64,000 nt of DNA from a virus. Shown here piece after piece: positions 6,160 to 49,671 of the stretch. Position 1 is the stretch's first letter; each line of letters starts with the position of its first letter. The translations under genes and the position numbers were made by a program. The stretch covers positions 1 through 64,000 of IMG/VR virus record IMGVR_UViG_3300005563_000031. One strand, written 5' to 3'. The notes below the pieces were generated by a model, which did no database searches, was not told the origin of the DNA, and saw nothing but the letters and a program-made list of their open reading frames with translations.

Positions 6160-6726
6160 GTGTTAACCGTGGAGCAAATAATCCTCGAGCTGCTGCACAT
6201 GCTCGGGGAAAACCCCCGTCGCGATGGTCTGCAAGACACGCCCGCTCGCGTGGCGAAAGCATGGCGCGAGTGGACAGCGGGATACGTGGAATCGCCCGCG
6301 CAGATCCTCAAATCGTTCGAGGAACCCGATGCCAACGAGATGGTCGTGGTGCGGGATATTCCATTCTACTCGATTTGCGAACACCATTTAGCGCCGTTCT
6401 TTGGTGTCGCGCATATCGGTTACATTCCAAAAGGGCGGGTGGTGGGATTATCCAAACTCCCGCGTCTCGTACGCTGTTTCGCACGACGATTAACCATACA
6501 AGAGCGCATCGCGACGCAAACCGCCGATGCGCTCGCTAAACACCTCGATGCCAAAGGCGTCGGAGTAGTCCTCGAAGCACGCCACTTGTGCATGGAGTCG
6601 CGCGGCATTGCGACGCCCGGCGCCATTACTACGACGAGCGCGTTGCGCGGCTGCATTTCAACCGAAGCTGACGCGCGTGCCGAATTCCTCTCGCTAACAC
6701 GGAGCCGCCCCAATGTCGCAGTCTAA
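6160..6726 (+). CDS. folE: FolE, GTP cyclohydrolase I
   Basis: First step of the deazaguanine pathway: GTP to 7,8-dihydroneopterin triphosphate. At 188 aa it matches the catalytic core length. Zinc ligands are in SICEHHLAPF (Cys73, His76) and RHLCMESRG (Cys near 144). The KLPRLVRCFARRLTIQERI helix is typical. GTG start; no strong Shine-Dalgarno, so coupling to the upstream gene is likely. Its end overlaps queF by 14 bases. Confidence 0.93.
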   Translation: MLTVEQIILELLHMLGENPRRDGLQDTPARVAKAWREWTAGYVESPAQILKSFEEPDANEMVVVRDIPFYSICEHHLAPFFGVAHIGYIPKGRVVGLSKLPRLVRCFARRLTIQERIATQTADALAKHLDAKGVGVVLEARHLCMESRGIATPGAITTTSALRGCISTEADARAEFLSLTRSRPNVAV

Positions 6727-7147
6727 GGACTTATCAGCGGGCCTGCATGCACTTGGCAGTACGGTAGCTACTACGTTCGATCGTCCCGTAGCGGCGGTGC
6801 TGGAGCGGTTTGAAAGCCCGCTCACACAAAGTCAAAACTTTGCCGGCATGATTCGCATTACATGCCCGGAGTTTACCTCGTTGTGCCCGAAGACCGGACA
6901 GCCGGATTTCGCCACGATCCGCATTAAATACCAACCCAACAAGTGGTGCGTGGAGTCGAAGTCCCTCAAGTTGTATTTGATGGGCTACCGCAATTACGGC
7001 AGTTTCCACGAGCAGTGTGTGCAGCAGATCGCAGACGACCTTGCACAGCTAATAAAGCCGCACTGGCTGCGGGTGCGTGGGGAATTTACTCCGCGTGGCG
7101 GCATTCCGTTTTGGCCTGAGGTACAGTATTTCGGAAACGGGCGGTAA
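6713..7147 (+). CDS. queF: QueF, preQ0 reductase (preQ1 forming)
   Basis: NADPH-dependent reduction of the preQ0 nitrile to preQ1. The 144-aa length matches the short unimodular QueF form. The signature SLCPKTGQPDFATI holds the nucleophile Cys58 and Asp65 with the family spacing, and VESKSLKLYLMGYRN is the conserved substrate-binding segment. ATG at 6713 with CGGAG upstream, overlapping folE. In a phage with DpdA it predicts a preQ1-type base, not only preQ0, in DNA. Confidence 0.92.
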   Translation: MSQSKDLSAGLHALGSTVATTFDRPVAAVLERFESPLTQSQNFAGMIRITCPEFTSLCPKTGQPDFATIRIKYQPNKWCVESKSLKLYLMGYRNYGSFHEQCVQQIADDLAQLIKPHWLRVRGEFTPRGGIPFWPEVQYFGNGR

Positions 7148-9465: not shown

Positions 9466-12150
9466 ATGTCGCTATTTAACGCACCCAAAACCAAGGTGCG
9501 GGCCGCCGCTACGCGCGTGGGGTGCGCAGCCTGCACGCTAACGGAACAGTGGCCCAGCTTGCGCGGCGCGCGCCAGCCGCAGGAACTATTTGGCCGCAAG
9601 CAAGTCGATGTATATTTTATTGGCGAATCCCCGAGCGAGGCCGACGATGCGCGTGGAGTGCCATTTAGCGGAGATAGCGGGAACCTTATACGCCGTGAAC
9701 TTCGTGATTGGCACATCTCGTACGGTTTCTCAAACGTCGTTCGTTGCCATACTCCCTCCGGCCGCTCCGCACTCGGAGGGGAGGTGTCGGCTTGTTGGTC
9801 CGGTTTTGGCTTACCTGATTTACTCGAAGCCCGCCCCAAAGTCATAGTGCCCCTCGGCAACGCGGCGCTCAACCGGTTCTTTGACGGTTCGGTGTTTGAT
9901 TGGAATGCGGTCGCGGTCCCGCACAAACTAACACCCGATTACAACGCGTGGATTTTCCCGCTGCACCACCCGTCCTACTTGCAGCAGATCGAGCAGAAGG
10001 ACAATCGAGGTGAATCCGACCTAACTAAGTTATGGCGGAAAGCACTGGTAAAAATTCACGAGGATATTGCGCAGCGACAAGTACCCATAATTCCCACGGA
10101 CGAGGAGATACGAGCGGGGATACAGCTTGTACTCCCTAACAATCTCGCACATGCGCGCCGCTTGCTCCTCGAGCGTGCGCCGGGTGTGGTAAGCATCGAC
10201 CTCGAAACGACATGCCTCATGCCATGGGAAAACGGTGCGAAGATCCTCAGCGCGTCCATTACCACTGCTGAATACACAGTCTGTTGGTTGGTTGATCATC
10301 CGGAAAACCCCCATCCTAAAGCAGCCCGGCAGTTGCTTATAGACGTATGCAACGCAGCCGACGGGTTAATTGCACACAACGCGATATTTGAGCAGCGTTG
10401 GATGGGGTGGCTCGCCGGCCTGCAAGCATTCGGGTGGCGTTGGCACGACACAATGGCCCGGCCGTTTGCAGAACTCGGCATCATAAAAGGAAACCGGCAA
10501 CAAGAGGAAGGCATTCCGGGGCGACTCGCATCCCTTGGAAAACAAACGCGACTGCATTTTGGTTTCGATGTCAAACAAATCACTCACGTTGATCCCCTAC
10601 AGTGGCGCACGACACCGGTTGAAAAATTCCTGCTCTACAATGCGCTGGACAGCAAGTGGTGTCGAGCCGTTTGGTTCCAACCCCTCGACCCGGTACCTGC
10701 GATCGAGGTTGCACGACAGGGTGATGCGACTCGTGCAATGGCTGCCATCAGCTGGCGCGGGATGCTCGTTGATCCGCAAGAACTCGCGACACAGGGAGCG
10801 AAGTTAGAAACTAACATCAAAAACCTAACACAGGTCATCTCGCGCGACAAGGACGTGGTGCGCTGGGAGTCGAAGAACCGCACGATATTCAACCCCTCCT
10901 CACCCGACATGGTGGCGAAGTTTTTTGGGTTAGAAGGCGCGGATGAGGAAGCGCTGCGCGTAGTCGACACCGGACTGTCCAAACAAATCCTCGCACTGCG
11001 CAAGCAAGAGAAACTGTTCTCGACCTACATACAAGGCATCAAAACGCTGACCTACCCGGACGGGCTGTTACATCCGGAATTTGGTACAATGTTGGTGGGC
11101 ACCGGGCGCACTAACAGCCGCAACCCAAACGCGCAAAACATGCCCAAGCGCGAGAACAAAGAGCTACGGCGTGTGGTGGTTCCACCCAAAGGATTTGCCC
11201 TCGTTTCCATCGACTACGCGCAACTCGAAGCTCGTGGTATCGCTATCGCGACACGCGACCCGACCATGTTGACGTACGTATGGAACGATGAGGATATCCA
11301 CCGCGAATGGGCTGAGGCCCTTTTTCGCGCGTTTCCGGCTATCGCGGATCGACTCTGCCCAAATGCGACCGAGGAGAAAAAAATCATTGCGCGCGTGCGC
11401 GGTGAGATCAAAAATGGGTTCGTGTTTCCAAGCTTTTACGGCGCGGGTGTTCCGAAGTGCGCCGGTGAACTGCAAGTGCCGCAGGACACGCTCCGTCCTA
11501 TCCTGGACCAATTCTGGCGGAAGTATGCAGCGGCTCGTAAGTGGCAGGACGAGGTGCACGGGTTCTATGCGGAACATCTCTATGTCGAAACAATGACGCG
11601 TCGACGGCGCTACGGGCCATTGTCCTGGACCGAGCAACTCAACTCGCCCATCCAGGGTACAGGTAGCGATATTGTGGTCGATGCGAGTATTCAGCTGCTC
11701 GACCTTGCATGCGAAACAAATGATGTTTGTTTCGTCCCGATGGTTAACATCCACGACGATTTATCCTTTTACTTGCCGTTGACTGAACTCGATAGGTATA
11801 TAGAAGCAATCGCGCGTGTAATGGTGACGCCGAGGTACACCTGGTGTACCGTCCCTTTAAAAGTTGAAGTTAGTGTTGGTGAACACAATTGGAGCGATCA
11901 ACGTGAGCTTAGGTCTTACCAAACCGGCGACTTCCACCCCCTCCCCAAGACGGACCTTAATCAACAAATCGCCGCCCTCAGAGCCGTTGCCGAGCGCGCA
12001 GCCTCCCGCAACACCCACCCCGGCAATGGACGCGGCAGCGGCGAACAACGCACGGCGCCGCCGGTCGACATCAACGCCGCCCGCCGAGCCCGAATCCTCG
12101 CCGCCGCCAAAGCCGCCAACGACAAGCGTCGCACCCGTCCGCGCCCCTGA
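9466..12150 (+). CDS. DNA polymerase I with N-terminal UDG-like domain
   Basis: Replicative family A polymerase, 894 aa. Residues 1-200 resemble a family 4/5 uracil-DNA glycosylase: an early CAAC pair, FIGESPSEADD, and HPSYL late in the domain. A 3'-5' exonuclease follows (SIDLETT, HNAIFEQRW, YNALDS). The polymerase core has motif A (SIDYAQLEAR), motif B (KNGFVFPSFYG) and motif C (VNIHDD, Asp for the usual Glu). The tail is Ala/Arg-rich and overlaps the next gene. Expected to act with the clamp and SSB encoded nearby. Confidence 0.9.
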   Translation: MSLFNAPKTKVRAAATRVGCAACTLTEQWPSLRGARQPQELFGRKQVDVYFIGESPSEADDARGVPFSGDSGNLIRRELRDWHISYGFSNVVRCHTPSGRSALGGEVSACWSGFGLPDLLEARPKVIVPLGNAALNRFFDGSVFDWNAVAVPHKLTPDYNAWIFPLHHPSYLQQIEQKDNRGESDLTKLWRKALVKIHEDIAQRQVPIIPTDEEIRAGIQLVLPNNLAHARRLLLERAPGVVSIDLETTCLMPWENGAKILSASITTAEYTVCWLVDHPENPHPKAARQLLIDVCNAADGLIAHNAIFEQRWMGWLAGLQAFGWRWHDTMARPFAELGIIKGNRQQEEGIPGRLASLGKQTRLHFGFDVKQITHVDPLQWRTTPVEKFLLYNALDSKWCRAVWFQPLDPVPAIEVARQGDATRAMAAISWRGMLVDPQELATQGAKLETNIKNLTQVISRDKDVVRWESKNRTIFNPSSPDMVAKFFGLEGADEEALRVVDTGLSKQILALRKQEKLFSTYIQGIKTLTYPDGLLHPEFGTMLVGTGRTNSRNPNAQNMPKRENKELRRVVVPPKGFALVSIDYAQLEARGIAIATRDPTMLTYVWNDEDIHREWAEALFRAFPAIADRLCPNATEEKKIIARVRGEIKNGFVFPSFYGAGVPKCAGELQVPQDTLRPILDQFWRKYAAARKWQDEVHGFYAEHLYVETMTRRRRYGPLSWTEQLNSPIQGTGSDIVVDASIQLLDLACETNDVCFVPMVNIHDDLSFYLPLTELDRYIEAIARVMVTPRYTWCTVPLKVEVSVGEHNWSDQRELRSYQTGDFHPLPKTDLNQQIAALRAVAERAASRNTHPGNGRGSGEQRTAPPVDINAARRARILAAAKAANDKRRTRPRP

Positions 12151-23327: not shown

Positions 23328-23590
23328 TGTTGAACGACGTGACGCACAAACGATTCGAGCGGCTGTCAGGCACGCAGTTTACGGAAGTTGAATTCGAAGA
23401 ACTCGCTTTAGGCGACGTATTTCGTGTGGTAGGTGAGGAAAAGTTCTACACTGCGATGAGCCGCCCGCATCCGGTGATCGGAACACCCGGTAAGTGGACG
23501 GTATATGCAGAACAAACCGATCCACCGGCGGGGATGCCACCACATGCAACAAGTACCTCGAGTGACTTGCACTCGCGAGCACACCATTAG
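23327..23590 (+). CDS. Hypothetical protein, 87 aa
   Basis: Starts four bases inside the sbcC-like stop region. A beta-rich small domain (FEELALGDVFRV...KFYTAMSRPHPV) and a His/Ser-rich tail that overlaps queD by 47 bases. The tail may be non-functional. No family assigned. Confidence 0.55.
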   Translation: MLNDVTHKRFERLSGTQFTEVEFEELALGDVFRVVGEEKFYTAMSRPHPVIGTPGKWTVYAEQTDPPAGMPPHATSTSSDLHSRAHH

Positions 23591-24047
23591 CTGCGGACAT
23601 CGAGTCCACAATCACGAAAGCCGCTGCGCTAATTTACACGGCCACAATTACACCATACAGATAACCTGCCAGTCCTATTTGCTTGACCAACTCGATAGTG
23701 TTGGACGAGTAGTGGACTTTTCTGTTATCAAATCTATTTGTTGCGAATGGCTCGAAAACGAATGGGACCACAAGTTCCTCATGTGGGAGGAAGACCCGTG
23801 GTATGACTTCCTCAAAGTTAACAAACTCGCGACTGCGACAGGACTCGTACCTATTCCAGGACTCATCGTCGTTCCGTTCAACCCTACTGCTGAGAATATG
23901 GCTTGTTTCCTTGTCGACAAATTCAATCAGCGGTTTGTCGACGTAAACGTACCAGTGGAATGCACCCACATCCGGGTAATTGAGACACCGAAATGCTGGG
24001 CTGATTACCACGCTGTGCCCCGCTACACCGGCATACTCCGCAAATAG
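23544..24047 (+). CDS. queD: QueD, 6-carboxytetrahydropterin synthase
   Basis: Second pathway step, dihydroneopterin triphosphate to CPH4. Zinc ligands His19, His32 and His34 (LHGHNY), catalytic Cys28, WDHKFL with the catalytic His, and a late VIETPKCWADY Glu. 167 aa counting from the ATG at 23544, which has GCGGGGATG before it; an upstream ATG would add 13 residues. It is separated from the other que genes by the recombination block. Confidence 0.88.
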   Translation: MQQVPRVTCTREHTISCGHRVHNHESRCANLHGHNYTIQITCQSYLLDQLDSVGRVVDFSVIKSICCEWLENEWDHKFLMWEEDPWYDFLKVNKLATATGLVPIPGLIVVPFNPTAENMACFLVDKFNQRFVDVNVPVECTHIRVIETPKCWADYHAVPRYTGILRK

Positions 24048-27987: not shown

Positions 27988-28526
27988 ATGTATTACCTGG
28001 TGTCACACAACCCAACCCACTCCACCCCGCCTCTAAAGTCGGAGTCGTGCGCGAGCGCGTCCGTAACATCTTTGAACAAGCGCGCGATCGGACCGGCGCC
28101 CGCCAAGCCCTCGAAGTGCGCGAGGTCCGCAGCCGCTACCACCAGCTGTACGGCCAGCCCTGTCGGCGCATCGGTGCGCACATCGATGCGATTTTCAGTG
28201 ACGGCAACATCGCCCGGCCGAACAAGGGCGTTTACATCTGGGTCGACGGGGTGCCGCAGCCGAAGAAGGTCAACCGGCTGATCGACACGGAGAACTTGCC
28301 CAAGCGCCGCAAGCCCGTCCCGAATGAGGCACACACAATGACGAGCGTGCAGGTGCGCGGTGCGCTCGCTATCCGCTACGACATCGACTTGTCGGTGAAG
28401 CTCATTGGCATGTTGGCGAAGGAGGGTGTTATACCGCACTCGCAGCCCACCGGCCCGCGTGGTGATTACCGCTATCCGCCGCGCGTCGTTCCGCTCCTCA
28501 ACAAGATTTGGTACACAGGTAAATGA
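27984..28526 (+). CDS. Hypothetical basic protein, 180 aa
   Basis: Basic and helical, with a middle part (RARDRT...VREVRSRYHQLYG...IGAHIDAIFSDGNI) and a C-terminal segment (SVQVRGALAIRYDIDLSVKLIGMLAKEGVI) that could be a winged helix. Probably nucleic-acid binding; unproven. Coupled to queE by an ATGA overlap. Confidence 0.6.
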   Translation: MNVLPGVTQPNPLHPASKVGVVRERVRNIFEQARDRTGARQALEVREVRSRYHQLYGQPCRRIGAHIDAIFSDGNIARPNKGVYIWVDGVPQPKKVNRLIDTENLPKRRKPVPNEAHTMTSVQVRGALAIRYDIDLSVKLIGMLAKEGVIPHSQPTGPRGDYRYPPRVVPLLNKIWYTGK

Positions 28527-29317
28527 ACCGCTACGGCTTCTATGAGGGGCGGCCGAATACAGATGAGAAACTGTACATCTCATCTATCTTCGAGACCATC
28601 GACGGCGAAACCAACTTGTTTCATGCCGGCACATGGTCTACGTTTATTCGCCTACAAGGTTGCCGTGTCGGCTGCCGTTGGTGTGATACGAAGTATAGCT
28701 GGGCGATCCATCGCGGCGGGGAACTGCTGACCCCGGATGAGATTATGGAGCGCGTTAAAAAGCGCGGCGCGCGCAAAGTGACGATCACAGGCGGCGAGCC
28801 CATGGAGCAGTGGGGGCCGGCACTAAATCGGCTAATAGGCGCGCTGCGGTGGCACGGCTACAACATCTCGATGGAGACCGCCGGCACCGAGTCGCTGCGC
28901 GAGATGCTGTTGGTGCATCACTACGTCAACATGATCGTAGACTTTAAGATGCAATCCGCGTGCGCGGCGAAGGGCAACTGGCAGCAAAACTGGCCACTCC
29001 TTGCAACAACCGACGTCGTGAAGTTTGTCGTAAAATTAGATGACATGCAAAAGCTTCCTGATATCGTGCGCAACATGCGGCAAGCGTGGGAATGCAAAGC
29101 GCGCATGGTATTTTCCCCTGTATGGGAGCAACAGTCGCAACTGGAGCAGTTCATGCAGCGAGCACACGTGCACAATTTTGTCGACCATAACATTGGTATA
29201 AACCTGCAGATGCACAAGTTCATCTGGCCCAATAACGTTCGGGATGAGGAAGGAGAGCAGCATGTTTCAGTGGATTCGCCGGTGGCGGGAACGCCGGGCA
29301 GCAGCAAAGCTCCCTAA
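28523..29317 (+). CDS. queE: QueE, 7-carboxy-7-deazaguanine synthase
   Basis: Radical-SAM enzyme, CPH4 to CDG. Cluster motif CxxxCxxC at Cys47-Cys51-Cys54 (GCRVGCRWCDT), preceded by TFIRLQG; TGGEPMEQW is the SAM-binding GGE motif. 264 aa, within the family range. The last ~18 codons overlap the next gene and look unconserved. Completes the FolE-QueD-QueE-QueC-QueF chain. Confidence 0.9.
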   Translation: MNRYGFYEGRPNTDEKLYISSIFETIDGETNLFHAGTWSTFIRLQGCRVGCRWCDTKYSWAIHRGGELLTPDEIMERVKKRGARKVTITGGEPMEQWGPALNRLIGALRWHGYNISMETAGTESLREMLLVHHYVNMIVDFKMQSACAAKGNWQQNWPLLATTDVVKFVVKLDDMQKLPDIVRNMRQAWECKARMVFSPVWEQQSQLEQFMQRAHVHNFVDHNIGINLQMHKFIWPNNVRDEEGEQHVSVDSPVAGTPGSSKAP

Positions 29318-38254: not shown

Positions 38255-38681
38255 AACGTTTGACTATCGCTGGGGTCGTAAGCTCACCGCGTTAAAAGGT
38301 TGGGCGGAATATGTTGACCTCAATTGGTCTCCCGACCGCGCCTACGGTTACGACGCACCCAAATGCAGTTGCGTGGTAGAAAATGGCGTTGTAATGCGCC
38401 AATGTTGGAAGCATTTCAACGAAACCTATTATGGATCTAGTAGTGCATCCGGTATAGGTAAATCAACAACAACGCACACCGGAGTTCACGACGATGCCGA
38501 AGTTACACGAAATCCTCGCGGCCGAAAAAATTCCAACCGCCGCGTGGAAGACGATGGTGCAAGAAACACTCAAAAAGTTCAAAGCACCGGACAGCTTTTT
38601 CCACGGGCACAGCAAAAGCCTGACGATGCTCGATCAGGAGGACCCGAAGTCGAAGGTAATCGAAGCGCAGAACCGTTCTGA
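38244..38681 (+). CDS. Hypothetical protein, 145 aa, long overlap
   Basis: The first ~80 residues (Trp/Tyr-rich with CSC and another Cys) look real. The last ~60 are charged low complexity encoded over the next gene (188-base overlap), so the functional stop or a frameshift may differ. ATG overlaps the preceding gene. Confidence 0.5.
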   Translation: MDSETFDYRWGRKLTALKGWAEYVDLNWSPDRAYGYDAPKCSCVVENGVVMRQCWKHFNETYYGSSSASGIGKSTTTHTGVHDDAEVTRNPRGRKNSNRRVEDDGARNTQKVQSTGQLFPRAQQKPDDARSGGPEVEGNRSAEPF

Positions 38682-39276
38682 GAAGCCGGTCACGACGACA
38701 GTCGCAGAGACGTTGGAATATGCCTTCGACCTGTTCGCGCGCAACGAGGACACGCAGTTACTGAAGAACCTCGGCAACGCCGAAGCACGCGGCACCATCT
38801 ATTTGCACGGTGCGGTGCTCGCTGCCGATGTGCCAGTTGATTCGTTGCTCGGTATCGAGAGCCGGCTGCAGGAAGTGAAGCAGCTGTTGCTCGCCATGCC
38901 TACACTCGATGCGACCAAGCACTGGGACCGCGCCGACCACATCGGCGAGTATGTGTGGGAGATAAAGTACCCGGAGGAATCGGCAAAAACAGCGAAGACC
39001 GCCAAGGCGGTCACACTGTCGCCGGCCACGAAGGAACACCCGGCGAACGTACAGTTGGTGCACGAGGATGTGCCGGTGGGCAAGTTCACGACCATCGCGC
39101 GCTCGGGCGAGTGCACGGCGGCGGAGAAAGCGGAAGCGATCAAGAACATCGACCTGATCATCACTGAGGTGAAGCGGGCACGGGTGCGCACCAACGAGAT
39201 CGAGGTGAAGGTGGCGACCATCGGCGATAAGCTGGTAAAAGCCATTCTCGAGCCGTTGCGGCGCGTGAATTTGTAA
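38494..39276 (+). CDS. Conserved phage protein, 260 aa
   Basis: Leader CCGGAGTTCACGACG. Helical protein with a LQEVKQLLLAMPTLDATKHW segment and a KFTTIARSGECTAAEKAEAIKNIDLIITEVKRARVR region, features I recall from uncharacterised phage and bacterial proteins. Function unknown. Last gene of the long rightward block before the permuted tRNA-like element. Confidence 0.7.
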   Translation: MPKLHEILAAEKIPTAAWKTMVQETLKKFKAPDSFFHGHSKSLTMLDQEDPKSKVIEAQNRSEKPVTTTVAETLEYAFDLFARNEDTQLLKNLGNAEARGTIYLHGAVLAADVPVDSLLGIESRLQEVKQLLLAMPTLDATKHWDRADHIGEYVWEIKYPEESAKTAKTAKAVTLSPATKEHPANVQLVHEDVPVGKFTTIARSGECTAAEKAEAIKNIDLIITEVKRARVRTNEIEVKVATIGDKLVKAILEPLRRVNL

Positions 39277-39397
39277 CGAGTTGGTAGCGATAGCGTTTGT
39301 GATTGTGAACCTGAGTCGCGGTTGAAGAAACCGTAATTTGAGATTTACCAACACTGCGTTAGCGCGAGGCGCGAAATAGCCCTAAAAACATACTATC

Positions 39398-39480
39398 TCG
39401 GTAGACGCGGGTTCGAATCCCGTCCCCCGCCCCATATCACTATGCGGGGGTGGTGCAGCGGTTTAGCACAACTGGGTTAA
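39398..39480 (+). tRNA. Permuted tRNA-like element (3' half before 5' half)
   Basis: Read rightward: a possible anticodon 3' strand (TCGGT, 39398-39402), a perfect T-arm (GCGGG TTCGAAT CCCGT, 39407-39423), acceptor CCCCCGC and CCCA (39424-39434). After a 9-base spacer comes acceptor GCGGGGG (39444-39450), TG, a D-arm (GTGC AGCGGTTTA GCAC), A, and ACTGG. The acceptor halves pair 7 of 7, and ACTGG pairs with TCGGT allowing two G-U. So a whole tRNA is present in circularly permuted order. A functional product would need end joining at the anticodon loop. Alternatives are two eroded tRNAs or an attachment-site remnant. Confidence 0.45.
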
Positions 39481-39520
39481 CTGTGATTGCGACAAACAAG
39501 GTAATTTCGCGGGTGCCCCC

Positions 39521-39565
39521 AGGGGCGGGTTCGTAACTACGGTAAATGATACGGATTCCGCCCCT
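39521..39565 (+). other. Hairpin after the permuted tRNA-like element
   Basis: AGGGGCGG pairs with CCGCCCCT (8 bp) around a 29-nt loop. No T tract. It may end or protect the preceding RNA. The rest of 39277-39397 shows nothing else I can assign. Confidence 0.35.
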
Positions 39566-39591
39566 CTATTAAGATAAGAGAGATACCAATA

Positions 39592-42691: not shown

Positions 42692-43927
42692 ATGGAAAAA
42701 TGGGAACGGGAGGCTAAAACCTTCGCAAAATGGTGGCACACGGGACAGTACCGTAAGTATACCAACGACACCGTGCCGTACTACCTGCACTGCGGTGCGG
42801 TTGCGCGGTTGCTGAAAACACACGTACCTAGCGCGACGCGCGAAATGATTATCGCAGCGTGGTTACACGACACGCTCGAGGACACGGATGTTACGGCGCT
42901 TGAAATCTACAATACCTTTGGCTCCGTGGTGCTACAGCACGTCGAGGATCTTACCGAGCGTAAGTACCCCGGCTGCGGTCGACGCGAACGCAAAGAGCGG
43001 GAACTCGCACGACTTTCGCAAGTCTCGATTGGATCTAAAACTATTAAGTTAGCTGATCTACTCGACAATGCGAAGGATATACTCGAGAAGGACAAGGATT
43101 TTGCGGTGGTGTACTTGCGCGAGAAACGCGACTTACTTACCTACGCGCTAAAGGACGGCGATCCGGTGCTGTGGGCGTTGTGCGATCGCGTGGTGGAAGA
43201 CGGTTTAAAACTGTTGTCAGAATTTAAGGGGATTTCCAGCATGAAAACGGGCTTAACAGATATCACGTTAATTGTCGATAGATCCGGATCGATGAATAAG
43301 ATTTACAATGACACCATTGGCGGTCTCAATTCCTTTTTGCAATCGCAGCGCGCCGTGGAAGGCGAGGCAGTGTTTTCTGCCGTACAGTTTGATGATAAGT
43401 ACGAACAGGTCGTGACAGGCATCGACATACAACGCGTAACGAATTTCACGCCTGGGTATGACTTTATGCCACGCGGTTCCACAGCACTGTACGATGCGCT
43501 GGGACGCACTATTACGGCTATTGGCGCGCGGTTGAAGGCGTTGTCTGAAGAGGCGCGGCCTGAACGCGTAATGGTCGTGATCGTTACCGACGGCAAAGAG
43601 AACGCGAGCGAGGAATTTACCAAGAAGCAGGTGTTTGATATGATTAAACACCAAACCGACGTGTACAAGTGGGACTTTACCTACATCGGCGCAAACCAGG
43701 ATTCCATGCAGTCTGGAGCTGCTATCGGCATCGCTGCGAGCAAAACGATGGATTACTCGCATACAGGTGTAGGCGCACGGGGTGCCTTCGCTGCTGCATC
43801 TAACTACACGCACAGTTTCCGGGCCGCCCCAACCCGCGAGGCTGCGAGTGCGAGTGCATTCACGGCCGAGGATCGCAAAGCGGCGGCGGGCGATAGTGCG
43901 GGACTTAAGCCGGACAGTACCGTTTAA
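42692..43927 (+). CDS. HD hydrolase (MESH1/SpoT-like) fused to VWA domain
   Basis: 411 aa. Residues 1-170 have the order of small alarmone hydrolases: YYLHCGAVARLLK, AAWLHDTLEDT (HDxxED) and KLADLLDNAKDI. Residues about 184-380 form a von Willebrand A domain with MIDAS DRSGSM, a later RGSTALYDAL and IVTDGKEN. An in-frame ATG at 43241 with AAGGGGATTTCCAGC could also start the VWA part alone. It would hydrolyse (p)ppGpp or a related nucleotide and bind a partner protein; the target is unknown. Confidence 0.72.
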   Translation: MEKWEREAKTFAKWWHTGQYRKYTNDTVPYYLHCGAVARLLKTHVPSATREMIIAAWLHDTLEDTDVTALEIYNTFGSVVLQHVEDLTERKYPGCGRRERKERELARLSQVSIGSKTIKLADLLDNAKDILEKDKDFAVVYLREKRDLLTYALKDGDPVLWALCDRVVEDGLKLLSEFKGISSMKTGLTDITLIVDRSGSMNKIYNDTIGGLNSFLQSQRAVEGEAVFSAVQFDDKYEQVVTGIDIQRVTNFTPGYDFMPRGSTALYDALGRTITAIGARLKALSEEARPERVMVVIVTDGKENASEEFTKKQVFDMIKHQTDVYKWDFTYIGANQDSMQSGAAIGIAASKTMDYSHTGVGARGAFAAASNYTHSFRAAPTREAASASAFTAEDRKAAAGDSAGLKPDSTV

Positions 43928-43969: not shown

Positions 43970-45475
43970 ATGGTCACTGCAGTAAAGGTACAAGGTAATG
44001 CGCTCGTAGACGGCGACGGTACGCCGCTACAGCTGCGCGGTGTAAACTGTTCGGCGCTCGAATTCGTGGCGATCCAATACGCCTCCGCATCCCCCAAAAC
44101 CAACTTCGATAACTGGGGCGGCCAAAAGCCGAATCTCAGCGCTGTCAAGTCCTGGGGCGCCAACAGCATCCGTGTGCCTCTCAACGAGCAAAGTTACCTT
44201 GGACTCGTATGCACTGACCAAACCGGTGCGCAACTTTTGGCAGATCCGGGCGGTAACTACCGCAGTGCTGTGAAAGCGATCGTGGACAGTGCGACCGCAT
44301 TGGGGTTGGCGGTGATTTTGGACTTGCACAAGAACACCGCCAACTTCACACCGGCCGGCGCCAGTACGGCAGTGCCTGGCTTGTCCAACACGAGCGGACA
44401 GTCGGAGATGGCGGATGCCGACCACAGCTACGACTTCTGGTCGGCGGTTGCGAACGATTACAAAACCTACCCCAACGTGCTGTTTGACCTCTTTAACGAG
44501 CCGCATATTGACAATTTCCAAAATCCCAGCACTTTCTCACCAAACCCCGGCACTAGCTTGCCGGCAGGACTGAACACCGAAGCGGCATGGGCGTGGGCTG
44601 TGTGGCGCGACGGGGGCACCGGTAAGCTGATCTACGCCAACAACCAGACCTACTCGCAGAACTATGCCTCTGCCGGCATGCAGGCCATGTTGGATGCCGT
44701 GCGCGCGACCGGCGCCACGAACATATGCATGGCGGGCGGGGTATCGTGGGCGCAAGACCTTGCGTTGTGGACGCAGTTTTGTCCCATCGATCCGATCAAA
44801 CAACTGGCGTGCTCGTGGCATGCGTACCCGAGCCAACAGAACCCCGCCTACCCGAGCTATCCGCCGGGCACGTGGTGGGGGCAGCCGAAGGGCTCGTTTG
44901 ATTACGCAGCCGACATTCTCGCCGCCGGCTACCCGATCATTATCGGCGAAACAGGAGACGATCCCAACAACCAACTCATGCCTGTACTGTTGCCGTGGGC
45001 GGATGCGCACAAAGTATCTGTTACCGCGTGGACATGGGATGTGGGGTGGGGGAATGATTCACTCATTGCGGATGCGAGTGGCACACCTGTAAACACCGGC
45101 ATCGCGTACAAACAATGGCTTCAAACGCACACCTCCGGAGGTACTCCTGTGTCCACTACCCAAAATGCAGCCCTGTCGATCGCCTACAACAGCGTGGCCG
45201 GTTTCCCGGCGGGCAGCGTCGTTGACCACATCAACGTTGCACTTACGGCGAAAAACAACACCGCCAACACCCCGCCTGCCAAAAACGTCGCGCCCGGCAC
45301 TGCCAATGTGACCTTCACAGGACTCGCACCGGACACGTACCAAATTGCCGTGCAAGCAATGCCAGCGACGGGCAGCGGGTTTGGCACGCCGGCAAGCGGC
45401 TCGATTACCATTACGCAAGTCAACACCACTATCTCGTTGTCGCTGCCAAGCACTGTCACTGCTACACAGCCGTAA
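43970..45475 (+). CDS. Glycoside hydrolase family 5 enzyme with C-terminal Ig-like domain
   Basis: 501 aa. The TIM-barrel region has the GH5 marks: DLFNEPH with acid/base Glu177 and IIGETGD with nucleophile Glu327, plus WGANSIRVPL and a HAYPSQ strand. The last ~100 residues look like an Ig/FN3 fold. No signal peptide, so it may ride on the virion or be released at lysis to cut host or plant polysaccharide. RBS weak (AGGGTAACGT). Confidence 0.82.
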   Translation: MVTAVKVQGNALVDGDGTPLQLRGVNCSALEFVAIQYASASPKTNFDNWGGQKPNLSAVKSWGANSIRVPLNEQSYLGLVCTDQTGAQLLADPGGNYRSAVKAIVDSATALGLAVILDLHKNTANFTPAGASTAVPGLSNTSGQSEMADADHSYDFWSAVANDYKTYPNVLFDLFNEPHIDNFQNPSTFSPNPGTSLPAGLNTEAAWAWAVWRDGGTGKLIYANNQTYSQNYASAGMQAMLDAVRATGATNICMAGGVSWAQDLALWTQFCPIDPIKQLACSWHAYPSQQNPAYPSYPPGTWWGQPKGSFDYAADILAAGYPIIIGETGDDPNNQLMPVLLPWADAHKVSVTAWTWDVGWGNDSLIADASGTPVNTGIAYKQWLQTHTSGGTPVSTTQNAALSIAYNSVAGFPAGSVVDHINVALTAKNNTANTPPAKNVAPGTANVTFTGLAPDTYQIAVQAMPATGSGFGTPASGSITITQVNTTISLSLPSTVTATQP

Positions 45476-45759: not shown

Positions 45760-45835
45760 TGGATCACCCGGATGGAATCGAACCATCATGTACGATGTTC
45801 AAAGCATCGTTGGGATACCAGTAACCCACAGGTGA
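45760..45835 (-). tRNA. tRNA-Gln(TTG)
   Basis: Acceptor TCACCTG/CGGGTGA, anticodon arm ACGATG CTTTGAA CATCGT, T-loop TTCGATT, D-loop with GG, encoded CCA. Canonical throughout. Confidence 0.88.
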
Positions 45836-45838
45836 AAA

Positions 45839-45973
45839 ATGAGTCGATTTGAACGTGTGGTGATCCAACTGCTGATCATTATCGCTAATAGGGTAGCGCG
45901 CAGTGCATCACCTGCAGACAGAATAAACATCGATCACGACGGGTGGCCGATGTACGGCGACAAACCCTTTTAA
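45839..45973 (+). CDS. Small protein between two tRNA genes, 44 aa
   Basis: Open on the plus strand opposite to the tRNAs, with AGGTGAAAA before the ATG. Hydrophobic first half (residues 7-16), charged second half. Short, but the spacing between two tRNA-Gln genes matches its length. Confidence 0.4.
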   Translation: MSRFERVVIQLLIIIANRVARSASPADRINIDHDGWPMYGDKPF

Positions 45974-45974
45974 A

Positions 45975-46050
45975 TGGATCAGGCGGTTGGAATCGAACCA
46001 ACGTGAACTGCGTTCAGAGCGCAGTGGGGATGCCAGCAACCCACACCTGA
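45975..46050 (-). tRNA. tRNA-Gln(CTG)
   Basis: Acceptor TCAGGTG/CGCCTGA, anticodon arm ACTGCG CTCTGAA CGCAGT, T-loop TTCGATT, encoded CCA. Close relative of the neighbouring Gln gene, so probably a duplication. Confidence 0.88.
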
Positions 46051-46058
46051 GAATTTCT

Positions 46059-46241
46059 ATGACAACAGAGAAAACTGCTATTTGCGGAGCGATCCGGCCT
46101 CAAGAAAAGCCTACGTGCCGACGTTCGCAAAAGATTGGCGGGCCGCGCTATGTTTGTGGACGCGAACCGAAGCACGAGGGGCCGTGCGGCTGCTGGCGGT
46201 TTTTGTCGCAGGTCGCTGCTGCGAAATTGGCGGGAAGGTAA
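46059..46241 (+). CDS. Cys-rich small protein, 60 aa
   Basis: Five Cys in CG, CRR, VCG and CGCW contexts; likely zinc-binding. Starts in a short gap after tRNA-Gln(CTG). Its end overlaps the Trp-like tRNA on the other strand. No family. Confidence 0.5.
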   Translation: MTTEKTAICGAIRPQEKPTCRRSQKIGGPRYVCGREPKHEGPCGCWRFLSQVAAAKLAGR

Positions 46242-46299
46242 GGAGTTGCACCCTACTTTTGGGGTTTGGAGTCCCATAGCTCGCTCCGAGCACCGACCC
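46228..46299 (-). tRNA. tRNA-Trp(CCA)-like
   Basis: Loop CTCCAAA and discriminator G73 with encoded CCA fit Trp. Acceptor pairs 5 of 7 (GGGTCGG with CCTTCCC). D-arm is tiny (CTCG GAG CGAG). T-loop is TGCAACT instead of TTC. Functional status uncertain, but it is the only Trp candidate in the cluster. Confidence 0.5.
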
Positions 46300-46307
46300 G
46301 TGAAACT

Positions 46308-46670
46308 ATGCCTATCTACGGTAGTCTAACACTACGCGCACGAATACTGGCAAACGATGAGCCGGCGTGGTTGAAAAAGCACGCACGCCGCGATTACATC
46401 GTGCAAGTACATCTTGCCACACCACGCTGGTACTCGCGTAAAGAAGTCGTACGGCTTAAGCAGAAGGCGCACGAGCTGTCGAAAGCGAAACGACGCAAGT
46501 ACGTACTGGACCACATCATCCCCCTCACACACAAGCGCGTATGCGGTTTAAACGTACACCACAATATGCAAATCATCGATGCCGGCACGAATGCGCGCAA
46601 ATCCAATCACTGGTGCGAGTGGCACGGGGAGTTATTCGCGGAACCTGAGCAGTTTCCACTGTTTCGATAG
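46308..46670 (+). CDS. HNH endonuclease-like protein, 120 aa
   Basis: Basic N-terminal half, then LDHIIPLTHKRVCGLNVHHNMQ and ARKSNHWCEW, the HNH pattern found in small phage nucleases (VDHIVPL...VCGLH...NL). Possibly a homing or DNA-packaging nuclease. ATG at 46308 follows the Trp-like tRNA. Confidence 0.65.
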   Translation: MPIYGSLTLRARILANDEPAWLKKHARRDYIVQVHLATPRWYSRKEVVRLKQKAHELSKAKRRKYVLDHIIPLTHKRVCGLNVHHNMQIIDAGTNARKSNHWCEWHGELFAEPEQFPLFR

Positions 46671-46676
46671 CGTGCC

Positions 46677-46750
46677 GGGCGCCGCGTGCCCATCGGTGCT
46701 AGGAAGTTTTGTGGCCCGCAAGCGGGGAAGATTCCTACGACGGGACGCCC
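46677..46750 (-). ncRNA. Structured 74-nt element
   Basis: Ends pair GGGCG/CGCCC, with inner stems TAGGAA/TTCCTA and CCCGC/GCGGG. Length is tRNA-like but no anticodon arm or T-arm is recognisable. Strand is assumed from neighbouring tRNAs. Confidence 0.3.
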
Positions 46751-46758
46751 ATGCACTC

Positions 46759-46847
46759 TGGCGGAAGGCAGTGAACTCGAATCACAAACGCTTATCGCGT
46801 TCCATCCGCTTTCCAAGCGGCTCGAGGCCCTGCCTCGTTTACCTTCC
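46759..46847 (-). tRNA. tRNA-Ser(GGA)
   Basis: Acceptor GGAAGGT/GCCTTCC, loop TTGGAAA, long variable arm (ACGC/GCGT stem), T-loop TTCGAGT, G73 and CCA. First of four serine isoacceptors. Confidence 0.85.
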
Positions 46848-46852
46848 AATGT

Positions 46853-46941
46853 TGGCGGATACCGTAGGAGTCGAACCTACACGGCCCGTTAAGACCCTAA
46901 CACCGCTTTCAAGGCGGGCGAGCGCGCCAGTGCGGGTATCC
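46853..46941 (-). tRNA. tRNA-Ser(TGA)
   Basis: Acceptor GGATACC/GGTATCC perfect, stem CCGC around loop CTTGAAA, long variable arm, T-loop TTCGACT, encoded CCA. Confidence 0.85.
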
Positions 46942-46956
46942 GAAAAGTAGGTGAGG

Positions 46957-47000
46957 CCCGGTGCAGCGGATAGCACTTGGACAGGTGCGTCCACACCGGG
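46957..47000 (+). ncRNA. Mini tRNA-like structure
   Basis: CCCGGTG pairs with CACCGGG; inside are GTGC AGCGGATA GCAC (the same D-arm-like motif as at 39453) and TGGAC/GTCCA. No T-arm. It may be a tRNA remnant or a small structured RNA. The bases 47001-47172 otherwise hold the hairpins listed next and no gene. Confidence 0.3.
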
Positions 47001-47039
47001 GGTCACCGAGCAGCTGAACCGGAACTGCGCTTGTTCCTT

Positions 47040-47059
47040 ACTGGCCTTTCGGCCGGTTC
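47040..47059 (-). repeat. Repeated hairpin ACTGGCCTTTCGGCCGGTTC, copy 1
   Basis: Identical 20-base unit recurs at 47905-47924. Forms a 7-bp stem ACTGGCC/GGCCGGT with a TTTC loop. Possibly an RNA processing or stability element between tRNA genes. Confidence 0.5.
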
Positions 47060-47090
47060 GTTTGCGAGTATAAGGGCACTTGCGCGCGGG

Positions 47091-47111
47091 TGCAGTCGCT
47101 TACTGCACCTT
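47091..47111. other. Hairpin GGTGCAGT/ACTGCACC
   Basis: A perfect 8-bp stem with a 5-nt loop in the tRNA-free stretch before tRNA-Ser(CGA). No U tract; orientation unknown. Confidence 0.3.
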
Positions 47112-47172
47112 GCGTCACGACCAACGCGCAGCAGGAGCGACACTGCCGCCATGGCGTCTAGCAAGTGTTTTC

Positions 47173-47260
47173 TGGCGGATGGCAATGGAGTCGAACCACA
47201 AGCGCTTGCGCACTCCATCTGTTTTCGAGGCAGTGCTGACACCGTGTCAGTTTACCATCC
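47173..47260 (-). tRNA. tRNA-Ser(CGA)
   Basis: Acceptor GGATGGT/GCCATCC, loop CTCGAAA with a weak 3-bp anticodon stem plus a mismatch, variable arm AGTGC/GCGCTT, T-loop TTCGACT, CCA encoded. Confidence 0.8.
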
Positions 47261-47286
47261 GTAAAATCTAAGGCGGTTAGGTTTAA

Positions 47287-47343
47287 GTAGGGGGCAAACC
47301 CTTACCCGGCGCCGGGCCCAGCATCACCGCAAGCCCCTACCAG
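47287..47343 (+). ncRNA. Short tRNA-like structure, uncertain
   Basis: GTAGGGG (47288) pairs with CCCCTAC (47334); an inner CCCGG/CCGGG hairpin and a final ACCA on the plus strand recall a degenerate tRNA. No anticodon can be placed. Confidence 0.25.
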
Positions 47344-47373
47344 TCTTGACCAGCAAGTACCGGTAGGAATGTT

Positions 47374-47462
47374 TGGCGGAAAGCAGTGTACTCGAAACAC
47401 ACACCCGTTAGGATGCCCTCTGTTTAGCAAACAGGTACGAGCGCCTGCCCGTTTTACTTTCC
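47374..47462 (-). tRNA. tRNA-Ser(GCT)
   Basis: Acceptor GGAAAGT/GCTTTCC, anticodon loop TTGCTAA, long variable arm, T-loop TTCGAGT, CCA encoded. Completes serine coverage for AGY codons. Confidence 0.85.
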
Positions 47463-47468
47463 GTAAAT

Positions 47469-47547
47469 TGGTCCCCGCAGCAGCTTGGGGAGCTGCGACC
47501 GTCCGGTTAAAAGCCGGATGCTCTTCACCCGTGTGAGCTATACGAGG
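47469..47547 (-). tRNA. tRNA-Lys(TTT), unusual T-loop
   Basis: Acceptor CCTCGTA/TGCGGGG, D-stem GCTC/GAGC with an 11-nt loop, anticodon arm TCCGG CTTTTAA CCGGA, CCA encoded. The T-stem GCAGC/GCTGC is perfect but its loop is TCCCCAA, lacking TTC. Confidence 0.75.
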
Positions 47548-47553
47548 AATGTT

Positions 47554-47629
47554 TGGTGCTCAGTGATGGAGTTGAACCATCTATCTCCGCGTTACGAATG
47601 CGGCGCATCGCCGGCAATGCTTACCGAGC
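47554..47629 (-). tRNA. tRNA-Thr(CGT)
   Basis: Acceptor GCTCGGT/ACTGAGC, D-arm GCAT TGCCGGCG ATGC, loop TTCGTAA, T-loop TTCAACT, CCA encoded. One mismatch closes the anticodon loop. Confidence 0.85.
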
Positions 47630-47743
47630 TTATCGGAATAAGAAGACTGTACCAAACATGCTCGCACCATCGGCAGCAAAACACCGCGCGCCATCCTCGT
47701 AGTCGTTTGCCGCACTGTCTGCAGTTCATGTTGGAATTATACA

Positions 47744-47818
47744 TGGAGCCCCACGTTGGACTTGCGCCAACCCTCGCTACTTACAAGGCAGCTACACCGC
47801 TATCTGTGTTTGTAGGGC
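47744..47818 (-). tRNA. tRNA-Thr(TGT), altered elbow
   Basis: Acceptor GCCCTAC/GTGGGGC, anticodon arm GCTGC CTTGTAA GTAGC, CCA encoded. T-loop is CGCAAGT and the D-loop AGATAGCG has no GG; D-loop GCG is complementary to T-loop CGC. Position 8 is A, not T. Confidence 0.75.
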
Positions 47819-47826
47819 GAAAAGTA

Positions 47827-47871
47827 CCGCCGAGCCCCTGTGCACACGCAGGTATTGGAAAGGCCCGGCGG
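47827..47871 (-). ncRNA. 45-nt hairpin element
   Basis: CCGCCGAGCC pairs 9 of 10 with GGCCCGGCGG; a smaller CCTG/CAGG stem sits inside. Lies between two tRNA-Thr genes. Could be a terminator or processing hairpin; strand uncertain. Confidence 0.35.
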
Positions 47872-47904
47872 ATTTTGCAATTAGAACCAGACGCTGGCGC
47901 CTTT

Positions 47905-47924
47905 ACTGGCCTTTCGGCCGGTTC
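47905..47924 (-). repeat. Repeated hairpin ACTGGCCTTTCGGCCGGTTC, copy 2
   Basis: Exact second copy of the 20-base hairpin at 47040-47059, also in an intergenic spacer of the tRNA cluster. Confidence 0.5.
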
Positions 47925-47943
47925 AATATGCATACTAACATGT

Positions 47944-48019
47944 TGGTGCCTCACCGACGAATTGCACGTCGCGCCTCATCTTTACCAAAGATGCGTTCCG
48001 CTCGCAGAACTTGAGAGGC
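47944..48019 (-). tRNA. tRNA-Thr(GGT), altered elbow
   Basis: Acceptor GCCTCTC/GTGAGGC (one mismatch), D-arm GTTC TGCGAGCG GAAC, anticodon arm CATCT TTGGTAA AGATG, T-arm CGACG TGCAATT CGTCG, CCA encoded. T-loop TGC, and the D-loop lacks GG. Confidence 0.75.
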
Positions 48020-48026
48020 AGTAAAT

Positions 48027-48100
48027 TGGCCTCCACGGTTGGACTCGAACCAACAACAGCAAGCCTTCGGAGGGCTCGCGCCGTATCCGACGGCGTGGAG
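48027..48100 (-). tRNA. tRNA-Arg(CCG), short D-arm
   Basis: Acceptor CTCCACG/CGTGGAG perfect, loop CTCCGAA, T-loop TTCGAGT, G73 and CCA. The D-arm is reduced to about 15 nt (GCCGT CGGAT ACGGC or similar). Confidence 0.8.
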
Positions 48101-48107
48101 TTTAAAG

Positions 48108-48181
48108 TGGCACCCCCGGTTGGACTCGAACCAACATATCTGCCGTTCGTAGCGGCGGATCCTTGTTCCGAAGGCAGGGGC
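48108..48181 (-). tRNA. tRNA-Arg(ACG), short D-arm
   Basis: Acceptor GCCCCTG/CGGGGGT, loop CTACGAA, T-arm GTTGG TTCGAGT CCAAC, CCA encoded. D-arm CCTT CGGAAC AAGG follows the acceptor with almost no linker. A34 would need editing to inosine to read all CGN. Confidence 0.78.
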
Positions 48182-48252
48182 GTAGAAAACTGTCCGGCGG
48201 CAGTAGGCGCGAGTACGGCTTGCGCTTTCGCCGCGCACTTACCTTAAAGGCC

Positions 48253-48353
48253 TGCCGGTATGGCCGTTACACCGGTTTGTAAAGGGCTTGGTAGTAAAAT
48301 AAATGGTTTAGCGTGTCTGAACACAGGCGCTCGCACACTGCCACACCACCGGC
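48253..48353 (-). tRNA. Degenerate tRNA-Leu(CAG)-like sequence
   Basis: Acceptor GCCGGTG/TACCGGC pairs fully and a TTCAGA loop lies between GTGT-type stems, but the T-arm forms only 3 bp, no CCA is encoded and the variable region is long. Probably a decayed gene; a better Leu(CAG) lies at 51117. Confidence 0.3.
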
Positions 48354-48440
48354 CAATAACCACCCTTTGTTTAGGTAGTCAGTGACTTCGTTATTAAAGT
48401 ACTGCAAGTTTGTGTTACTTACTACGATGTATTTCAATGT

Positions 48441-48536
48441 TGGTACTCGATGTAGGATTTGAACCTAACCCGTTGCAGCCAGTCCGACCGCTCTCGCACG
48501 CTTATAAGGCGCACCCGCACACCAGTGCTATCGAGT
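48441..48536 (-). tRNA. Class II tRNA with UAU anticodon (Ile-like)
   Basis: Acceptor ACTCGAT/ATCGAGT perfect, anticodon arm TGCGC CTTATAA GCGTG, T-loop TTCAAAT, CCA encoded. Between anticodon arm and T-arm is a ~28-nt variable arm with a 6-bp stem (GCGGTC/GGCTGC), normal for Ser, Leu or Tyr but not Ile. Identity therefore uncertain. Confidence 0.7.
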
Positions 48537-48548
48537 ATTGCTCCTTTC

Positions 48549-48624
48549 CGAGGGGCGGCGGGCAGTGTAGTTAGCGACGCTACACTGAGTTGGGAGCTAC
48601 CCAACCAACCCCGCAGGCCCCTCG
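48549..48624 (-). ncRNA. Structured RNA candidate A, 76 nt
   Basis: Ends CGAGGGGC/GCCCCTCG (8 bp) continue as GCGGG/CCCGC; inside are two perfect hairpins, CAGTGTAG/CTACACTG and GTTGGG/CCCAAC. A three-way junction of tRNA length without anticodon or T-loop. Lies between two tRNA genes; strand assumed. Confidence 0.5.
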
Positions 48625-48634
48625 TACTTCTTTG

Positions 48635-48711
48635 TTGCGGTAGCTGGACTTGCACCAGCCTTAAATCGGCTTATGAAACCGTGGCGAAACTACCTTCGAC
48701 CATATACCGCA
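48635..48711 (-). tRNA. tRNA-Met(CAT), no encoded CCA
   Basis: Acceptor TGCGGTA/TACCGCA perfect, loop TTCATAA, T-arm GCTGG TGCAAGT CCAGC. The D-arm is long (TGG-CGAA/TTCG-CCA with one bulge). A73 is followed by CAA, so the CCA end must be added. With CAT it could be elongator Met, or Ile if modified. Confidence 0.7.
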
Positions 48712-48883
48712 AAATTGTGCCCGCTTCGCTTTTCATTTCGTGGCAACGGACTAACACGCGGTGGCACCTATCAGCTCCCTACATGCATGCAACGCATTTG
48801 GGCGGGGATGGAGGCAGGGGTTAGGGAATGCGCATGTCTAGAATACGCCAATACACCTAAAGCCGTACCAACACCCCCATACC
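48712..48883. other. Spacer with no assigned feature
   Basis: I found no convincing gene, tRNA or strong hairpin on either strand between tRNA-Met and tRNA-fMet. Confidence 0.4.
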
Positions 48884-48958
48884 TGGTAGCGGGAGAGGGA
48901 TTCGAACCCCCGACCTTCTGGTTATGAGCCAGACGAGCTACCTCTGCTCTATCCCGCA
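48884..48958 (-). tRNA. Initiator tRNA-fMet(CAT)
   Basis: T1-T72 mismatch at the acceptor end followed by six pairs (GCGGGA/TCCCGC), D-arm GAGC AGAGGTA GCTC, loop CTCATAA, T-loop TTCGAAT, CCA encoded. The unpaired first position is the initiator hallmark. Confidence 0.88.
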
Positions 48959-49023
48959 TCAAACAATGCCGCGTTCCTCTTATATACCGGATACGCGGCC
49001 AACCCGGTATTGCAATTCGAGGA

Positions 49024-49098
49024 GGTGCTGTTGGGACTATCCTACAGGAGAACAAAGGACAGACCGGACTTATGGACGCTACGTGTCCCAACAGCACC
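49024..49098 (-). ncRNA. Structured RNA candidate B, 75 nt
   Basis: Perfect 14-bp terminal helix GGTGCTGTTGGGAC/GTCCCAACAGCACC closing a 47-nt interior. Size equals a tRNA but no cloverleaf fits. Lies between fMet and Phe genes; strand assumed. Confidence 0.5.
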
Positions 49099-49128
49099 GA
49101 CAACCGAACTATACAGCGAACTTTGAAT

Positions 49129-49203
49129 TGGTGCCTCGAGAAGTGCTCGCACCTTCGTATCTGGGTTTTCAGGCCAGCGCTACTCTGTCTCAGCTATCGA
49201 GGC
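49129..49203 (-). tRNA. tRNA-Phe(GAA), altered elbow
   Basis: Acceptor GCCTCGA/TCGAGGC perfect, loop CTGAAAA with one mismatch in the stem, A73, CCA. T-loop is TGCGAGC and D-loop GAGACAGAGT has no GG. Confidence 0.75.
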
Positions 49204-49209
49204 AAATAC

Positions 49210-49295
49210 TGGTCCTCACGGCTGGACTTGCACCAGCACGCCGGTTAAGGCACAGCGTTCTCAACACTGCGTGTCTGCTGTTTCACCACGCGAGG
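49210..49295 (-). tRNA. tRNA-Leu(GAG), altered elbow
   Basis: Acceptor CCTCGCG/CGTGAGG, anticodon arm CAGTG TTGAGAA CGCTG, variable arm TGCC/GGCG, T-arm GCTGG TGCAAGT CCAGC, CCA. D-loop AAACAGCAGA contains GCA, complementary to T-loop TGC, and no GG. Confidence 0.78.
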
Positions 49296-49302
49296 AATAG
49301 TT

Positions 49303-49551
49303 TCAACGGATCGTTTCAATAGTCTTACCATCCTCGTTCATAATGTAGGCGACGTTGTAGGAACAGGACTGGTCCATTCCCACTGTTACCTCTGTAGTTT
49401 CACCCGGTGCGTCGCCGCACTGTATAACCGCGCACAAGTTTTCCTTGTACGTTACGTGGACGGCTTTCGCCTCACGCACTGATATCGCTTCTGTGTATGA
49501 GGGCTTAGCGGGCGCTTCTGGCCCGTACTTATAGAATTTTACTGTCAACAT
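49303..49551 (-). CDS. Hypothetical protein inside the tRNA cluster, 82 aa
   Basis: Same strand as the tRNAs, with TAGGACGAGTAGACT before the ATG. Beta-rich small protein with Cys at about 40 and 45. Likely co-transcribed with the tRNAs; function unknown. Confidence 0.65.
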   Translation of the reverse strand: MLTVKFYKYGPEAPAKPSYTEAISVREAKAVHVTYKENLCAVIQCGDAPGETTEVTVGMDQSCSYNVAYIMNEDGKTIETIR

Positions 49552-49581
49552 AGTCTACTCGTCCTACTACTGCTAAGAAAC

Positions 49582-49665
49582 TGGTACCTCTGGTGAGAGT
49601 TGCACTCACACACCTTGCGGCGCCGGAATTTGAAGCCGGTGCGTCTGCTGTTCCGCCACAGAGGC
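49582..49665 (-). tRNA. tRNA-Leu(CAA), altered elbow
   Basis: Acceptor GCCTCTG/CAGAGGT, anticodon loop TTCAAAT, T-arm GTGAG TGCAACT CTCAC, CCA encoded. D-loop GAACAGCAGA (GCA, no GG). Confidence 0.76.
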
Positions 49666-49671
49666 AAAAGT

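Follow-up and report, generated by a model that had tools for sequence, protein, structure and literature searches.

A probable permuted tRNA-like RNA encoded beside a DUF7873 gene in a phage genome, and its apparent relatives in phages and bacteria

The locus in the phage genome

The window analysed here covers 64,000 nucleotides, positions 1 to 64,000 of the phage record IMGVR_UViG_3300005563_000031. In it, two genes of the same strand flank a gap of 315 nt that holds a circularly permuted tRNA-like element at 39397-39476 (+), where the 3' half of a tRNA ending in C-CCA is followed, after 9 nt, by a matching 5' half (Table 1). This arrangement had been claimed in an earlier note made from the letters alone, and reading of the sequence confirmed it, together with the seven of seven pairs proposed for the acceptor strands. 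The D-stem pairs at 4/4 positions and the T-stem at 5/5, one G-U included, while the variable loop sits between the 3' strand of the anticodon-type stem and the T-arm. The five pairs that the note had counted in the anticodon-type stem are found as well, and indeed in each of two registers.

Table 1. Features of the DUF7873 locus, in coordinates of the window
Feature	Position	Strand	Basis
Gene of the DUF7873 protein (260 aa), the presumed partner of the RNA	38494..39276	+	Pfam PF25283; 147/177 and 74/84 homologous loci have a permuted element downstream
Probable noncoding RNA, entire gap between the two genes	39277..39591	+	Fold beats all 100 shuffles, z=-3.29; limits inferred
Predicted closing helix, 5' strand UUGGUA	39281..39286	+	Minimum free energy fold
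Period-6 repeat tract GTAGCG ATAGCG TTTGTG ATTGTG AACCTG AGTCGC	39284..39319	+	Sequence; period 6 is a family property
Candidate tail helix, 5' strand CGCGAAAT	39370..39377	+	Pairs with 39504-39511 in one fold, not so paired in whole-gap fold
Anticodon-type stem, 3' strand CTCGG (39397-39401) or TCGGT (39398-39402)	39397..39402	+	5/5 pairing with 39471-39476
T-arm GCGGG-TTCGAAT-CCCGT	39407..39423	+	Sequence; Rfam YrlA and tmRNA models match the T-arm
Acceptor stem, 3' strand CCCCCGC	39424..39430	+	7/7 with 39444-39450; covariation across family
Discriminator C (39431) and encoded CCA (39432-39434)	39431..39434	+	Sequence; CCA here in 107/181 phage elements
Linker joining the halves, TATCACTAT, 9 nt	39435..39443	+	Sequence; family linkers 6-118 nt
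Acceptor stem, 5' strand GCGGGGG	39444..39450	+	Sequence; pairs with 39424-39430
U8-G9, then D-arm GTGC-AGCGGTTTA-GCAC (D-arm 39453-39469)	39451..39469	+	Sequence; U8, A14 invariant in 240 elements
Anticodon-type stem, 5' strand ACTGG (39471-39475) or CTGGG (39472-39476)	39471..39476	+	Pairs with 39397-39402
3'-tail hexamer-like repeat CTGTGATTGCGA	39481..39492	+	Sequence; same-sense hexamers common to both tails are a family property
Candidate tail helix, 3' strand ATTTCGCG	39504..39511	+	Partner of 39370-39377 in one fold
Predicted closing helix, 3' strand UACCAA	39584..39589	+	Minimum free energy fold

A structural finder run on both strands of the window returned this element as its single hit above threshold (score 24.5, the next best being 22.0), and 40 dinucleotide shuffles of the window never reached a score of 23, peaking at 21.5. 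ARAGORN, run on the same window, makes no call at the element, and tRNA annotation is therefore likely to overlook elements of this kind. The best Rfam match is YrlA at 21.2 bits, under the cut-off of 69 bits. No direct DNA homology to phages was found, and the exact pattern of the 5' half had no match among the viral contigs searched.

The product of the upstream gene scores 195 bits against the Pfam family PF25283 (DUF7873; cut-off 27), a family named in none of the papers covered by a search restricted to open-licence literature. The modelled structure (pLDDT 90.8) is predicted to be alpha-helical with one long beta hairpin, and no relative with E below 0.001 emerged for this fold in the PDB or BFVD. 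Weak fold matches to TolC and TraT (Z up to 7.8, rmsd 12.5) and matches to Cas7-type proteins (TM-scores near 0.1) were discounted, and the sole PADLOC match, DpdC at E=0.027, was treated as chance. As neither a solved structure nor a predicted viral one matched convincingly, the biochemical role of DUF7873 was not deduced from its fold.

A family linked to DUF7873 and its conservation

Homologues of DUF7873 are spread over phages of Klebsiella, Rhizobium, Vibrio, Gordonia, Rhodococcus, Arthrobacter and the cyanobacteria Pseudanabaena and Microcoleus, many further IMG/VR contigs, and bacterial genomes, the latter mainly of Streptomyces, Nonomuraea, Nocardia and Actinomadura. A permuted element lies on the strand of the gene in 147 of 177 non-redundant IMG/VR loci, usually 0-500 nt downstream of it, and on the opposite strand in 2. 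In a second set of loci, drawn from named phages and from bacterial genomes, 74 of 84 have an element on the gene's strand and none has one on the other. For a hit, the family finder needs pairing of the T-arm, the acceptor, the D-arm and the anticodon stem, arranged in permuted order; since it thereby imposes the pairing itself, these raw counts lean on the strand and shuffle controls. In actinobacteria and the phages that infect them, elements often stand in tandem pairs with a spacing of about 150 nt. In the bacterial loci that were checked, the genes flanking the module are not related between loci, so that the unit seems to consist of the protein and the RNA. A DUF7873 gene with a permuted element was also seen on a contig binned as Lokiarchaeota (L232, 3001-4170), which may be a phage or bacterial contaminant. 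The same order in related phages, a check proposed in the earlier note, is thus conserved; two intact tandem tRNAs, which the note had named as the finding that would speak against permutation, were seen at no homologous locus examined. Altogether, the phage element appears to be one member of a seemingly undescribed RNA family that lies beside the uncharacterised DUF7873 in hundreds of phages and bacteria.

Covariation was assessed on loci picked by T-arm and D-arm alone, that is, with no selection for acceptor pairing. The set comprised 118 different acceptor 5' strands, and the acceptor was fully complementary (7/7) in 117 of 135 distinct pairs, against 1.2% expected after swapping strands between loci. 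Over 240 elements U8, A14 and R57 are invariant and C74 is 93% conserved; the score of the finder weakly favoured U8, and did not favour A14 or R57. CCA is encoded at the tRNA-like position in about half of these elements, and its presence tracks CCA encoding by ordinary tRNAs of the same locus (29/33 vs. 28/49). Judging from these patterns of variation, the tRNA-like structure is under selection.

The anticodon loop behaves differently. A canonical loop, with U33 and a purine at 37, could be assembled in 40% of the 104 elements with a well-defined anticodon stem, to which this comparison was limited, against 37% for randomly swapped halves, while in ordinary tRNAs of these loci U33 is present in 404/420 and R37 in 408/420 cases (about 96-97%). 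One of the two stem registers of the window element could give U33 and A37, although its closest relatives are without purine 37, and the average match in a search for anticodon sequence shared between the two halves was near background. With U8, A14 and R57 invariant and the loop not conserved across the family, the element is most likely a non-decoding tRNA mimic carried on a tail arm with period-six repeats. Of the permuted tRNA-like gene proposed in the earlier note, the order of the parts has therefore proved genuine and conserved, while the implied tRNA joined at the anticodon found no support.

The tails and the predicted fold of the whole RNA

The 315-nt gap is predicted to fold as a unit, in which the two ends pair and the acceptor, T and D stems are retained, with none of 100 shuffles reaching the same stability; the segment 39363-39520 folded alone is not unusually stable. 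Across the family, the tails pair better with their own partner than with those of other elements (-27.3 vs. -19.3 kcal/mol, a difference of 25 standard deviations of the shuffled means). The 5' and the 3' tails both show six-base periodicity, the two tails of one element have hexamers in common in the same sense, and the family consensus of the hexamer is ARRYUN. Tail sequences vary between phage groups: in actinobacteria and their phages AUCGA stands opposite UUAAAYG in an internal loop between two tail helices, a loop absent from the window. A collection pattern made from a short consensus of the 5' tail found no exact match.

Relation to known permuted RNAs

The closest parallel is offered by the bacterial Y RNA YrlA, which consists of a stem formed by its paired ends and a tRNA-like domain that DusA and TruB modify; Rsr binds the stem, and PNPase is found on the tRNA-like domain (PMC8394870). 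As in YrlA (Rfam RF02553), T-arm, acceptor and D-arm follow one another in permuted order, an anticodon is absent, the tails pair into an arm that closes the tRNA-like domain, and the RNA gene adjoins the gene of a protein partner, here a presumed one. The adjoining gene, however, encodes DUF7873 and not a TROVE protein, and the tails of the DUF7873-linked RNAs have period-six repeats, unlike those of YrlA. Another difference concerns GGUUAY, a motif derived in this analysis from few genomes, which precedes the element in the Ro60-linked RNAs of four bacterial genomes and was found in the tail of just 3 of 239 DUF7873 elements. The DUF7873-linked RNAs also usually encode CCA in the linker, while the linkers of three Ro60-linked bacterial RNAs that were read do not, a distinction that separates the classes incompletely. 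Arrays of permuted tRNA-like RNAs, some with CCA, were observed beside TROVE in Calothrix (L315, 1340-1730) and in the Rhizobium phage RHph_TM21B (L312, 1340-2120); these tandem arrays are apparently separate from the DUF7873 module.

The element could accordingly be read as a member of the YrlA family itself, whose tail arm binds Ro60/Rsr of the phage or the host, with DUF7873 as an accessory. The common order of parts speaks for it, as do the 25-38 bits that many elements score against YrlA; the TROVE-linked RNAs of the genomes searched likewise stay under the Rfam cut-off (at most 51.8 bits). The YrlA score was nonetheless rejected as a detector, because tandem tRNAs score as well. TROVE is present in 12 of 24 genomes with DUF7873. 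A class sample of 98 genomes, of which 13 had TROVE, included 6 with DUF7873; TROVE accompanies it in 5, one of these being the chosen centre of the sample. This co-occurrence in the sampled actinobacteria makes a functional link between the two proteins possible, though it may also reflect common ancestry and genome size. On the other side, TROVE is missing from half of those bacterial genomes, was not detected in the 105,784-base phage record, which is possibly incomplete, and is absent from 4 of the 5 other phages with DUF7873 that were tested. Moreover, in genomes with both DUF7873 and TROVE each protein has its own RNA alongside, which shows the two modules to be separate, and with the near absence of GGUUAY from the DUF7873 elements we regard membership in the Ro60-bound family as unlikely.

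Permuted tmRNA (Rfam RF04321) shares with the element an acceptor 3' strand with CCA placed before the 5' strand and a tRNA-like domain without anticodon. A two-piece RNA of this kind, with the linker excised and the CCA charged with an amino acid to act on ribosomes, would suit the CCA ahead of the linker, the conserved C74 and the weak matches to tmRNA models. The score of the element against the Rfam tmRNA_permuted model is far under the cut-off, however (11.4 vs. 47 bits), its pair 3-70 is G-C instead of the G-U of tmRNA, and an unsystematic look identified no reading frame for a tag, so that a tmRNA-like function seems very unlikely. Models of group I introns and self-cleaving ribozymes, considered as sources of a permuted RNA, gave no Rfam match even at lax thresholds, the models being in unrearranged order.

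Circularly permuted tRNA genes occur in red and green algae and in archaea, and these too have the 3' half first, a short intervening sequence and a matching acceptor (PMC3978253). The DUF7873-linked RNAs differ from them in having no conserved anticodon loop, in their long paired tails, and in their occurrence in phages and bacteria tied to one protein family. A true permuted tRNA gene, with a transcript circularised at the anticodon and trimmed to a decoding tRNA, would be in keeping with the full set of stems, the CCA, and the U33 and A37 obtainable in one register. It is nevertheless highly improbable in view of a loop that real halves assemble hardly more often than swapped ones, of the nearest relatives without purine 37, and of the lack of anticodon sequence common to both halves.

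An origin as the remains of two tandem tRNAs, or as an attachment site derived from a tRNA, with complementarity arising by chance, might be suggested by the tRNA cluster 6-13 kb away in the phage and by the weak YrlA matches of tandem tRNA pairs (13 of 14 control genomes, E<=1). It can be dismissed as exceedingly improbable, since hundreds of unrelated genomes show this order next to the same gene, no intact pair was seen at the homologous places, and the compensatory changes of the acceptor strands refute it at the family level.

A model of the proposed DUF7873-RNA module

We therefore consider it probable, if well short of certain, that the RNA is a Y-RNA-like tRNA mimic which forms, with DUF7873, a two-component module of phages and bacteria. 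To the features read directly from the sequences, namely the permuted tRNA-like fold and its covariation, the linkage to DUF7873, the pairing of the tails with their period-six repeats and the loss of the anticodon loop, the following model may be added. The RNA, encoded directly downstream of DUF7873, would be made together with the protein, and its middle part would fold into a tRNA-like domain of permuted strand order, composed of the acceptor stem with CCA, the T-arm, the D-arm and the anticodon-type stem, with the short linker bridging the acceptor ends. Both tails would leave at the anticodon end and pair into an extended arm bearing the repeats, whose regularity suggests binding by DUF7873 subunits. 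By analogy with YrlA and Ro60/Rsr, the domain might mimic a tRNA and draw tRNA-handling enzymes to the complex, and RNase P and 3'-end enzymes may cut the linker and expose the CCA end, as in the two-piece permuted tmRNA.

A bolder version, which we put forward tentatively and hold to be rather doubtful as a whole, sees in DUF7873 and its RNA a ribonucleoprotein of a new class that parallels Ro60-Y RNA, in which each six-nucleotide repeat of the tails would hold one DUF7873 subunit. The assembly would display a single tRNA-like domain or two of them, with CCA exposed through trimming by host tRNA enzymes, and would thereby recruit or decoy the tRNA-handling machinery in phages and bacteria. 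With the module proposed here, a protein family of unknown function gains a specific candidate RNA partner, and tRNA mimicry by permuted RNAs would reach beyond the Y RNAs bound by Ro60. As the same module is found in phages and in host bacteria, its role may lie in the quality control of tRNA or RNA, or in a conflict between phage and host over tRNAs.

Other genes in the window

ARAGORN found a cluster of about 25 tRNAs at 45760-52683 (-), to which Rfam adds tRNAs that ARAGORN missed, e.g., at 49132-49203 and 47472-47547; the tRNA at 50044-50116 (-) has an odd anticodon. Genes of the 7-deazaguanine pathway lie on the plus strand at 4390-5271, 6160-6726, 6713-7147, 23505-24047 and 28523-29317, the set comprising QueC, GTP cyclohydrolase I, a QueF-like protein, a PTPS/QueD-like protein and a radical SAM protein, and the phage may modify its own DNA with a preQ0-type base. 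Three further plus-strand genes encode a family A DNA polymerase with a fused N-terminal uracil-DNA-glycosylase-like domain (9466-12150), an HD phosphohydrolase domain fused to a von Willebrand factor A domain (42692-43927) and a cellulase-type protein of glycosyl hydrolase family 5 (43970-45475).
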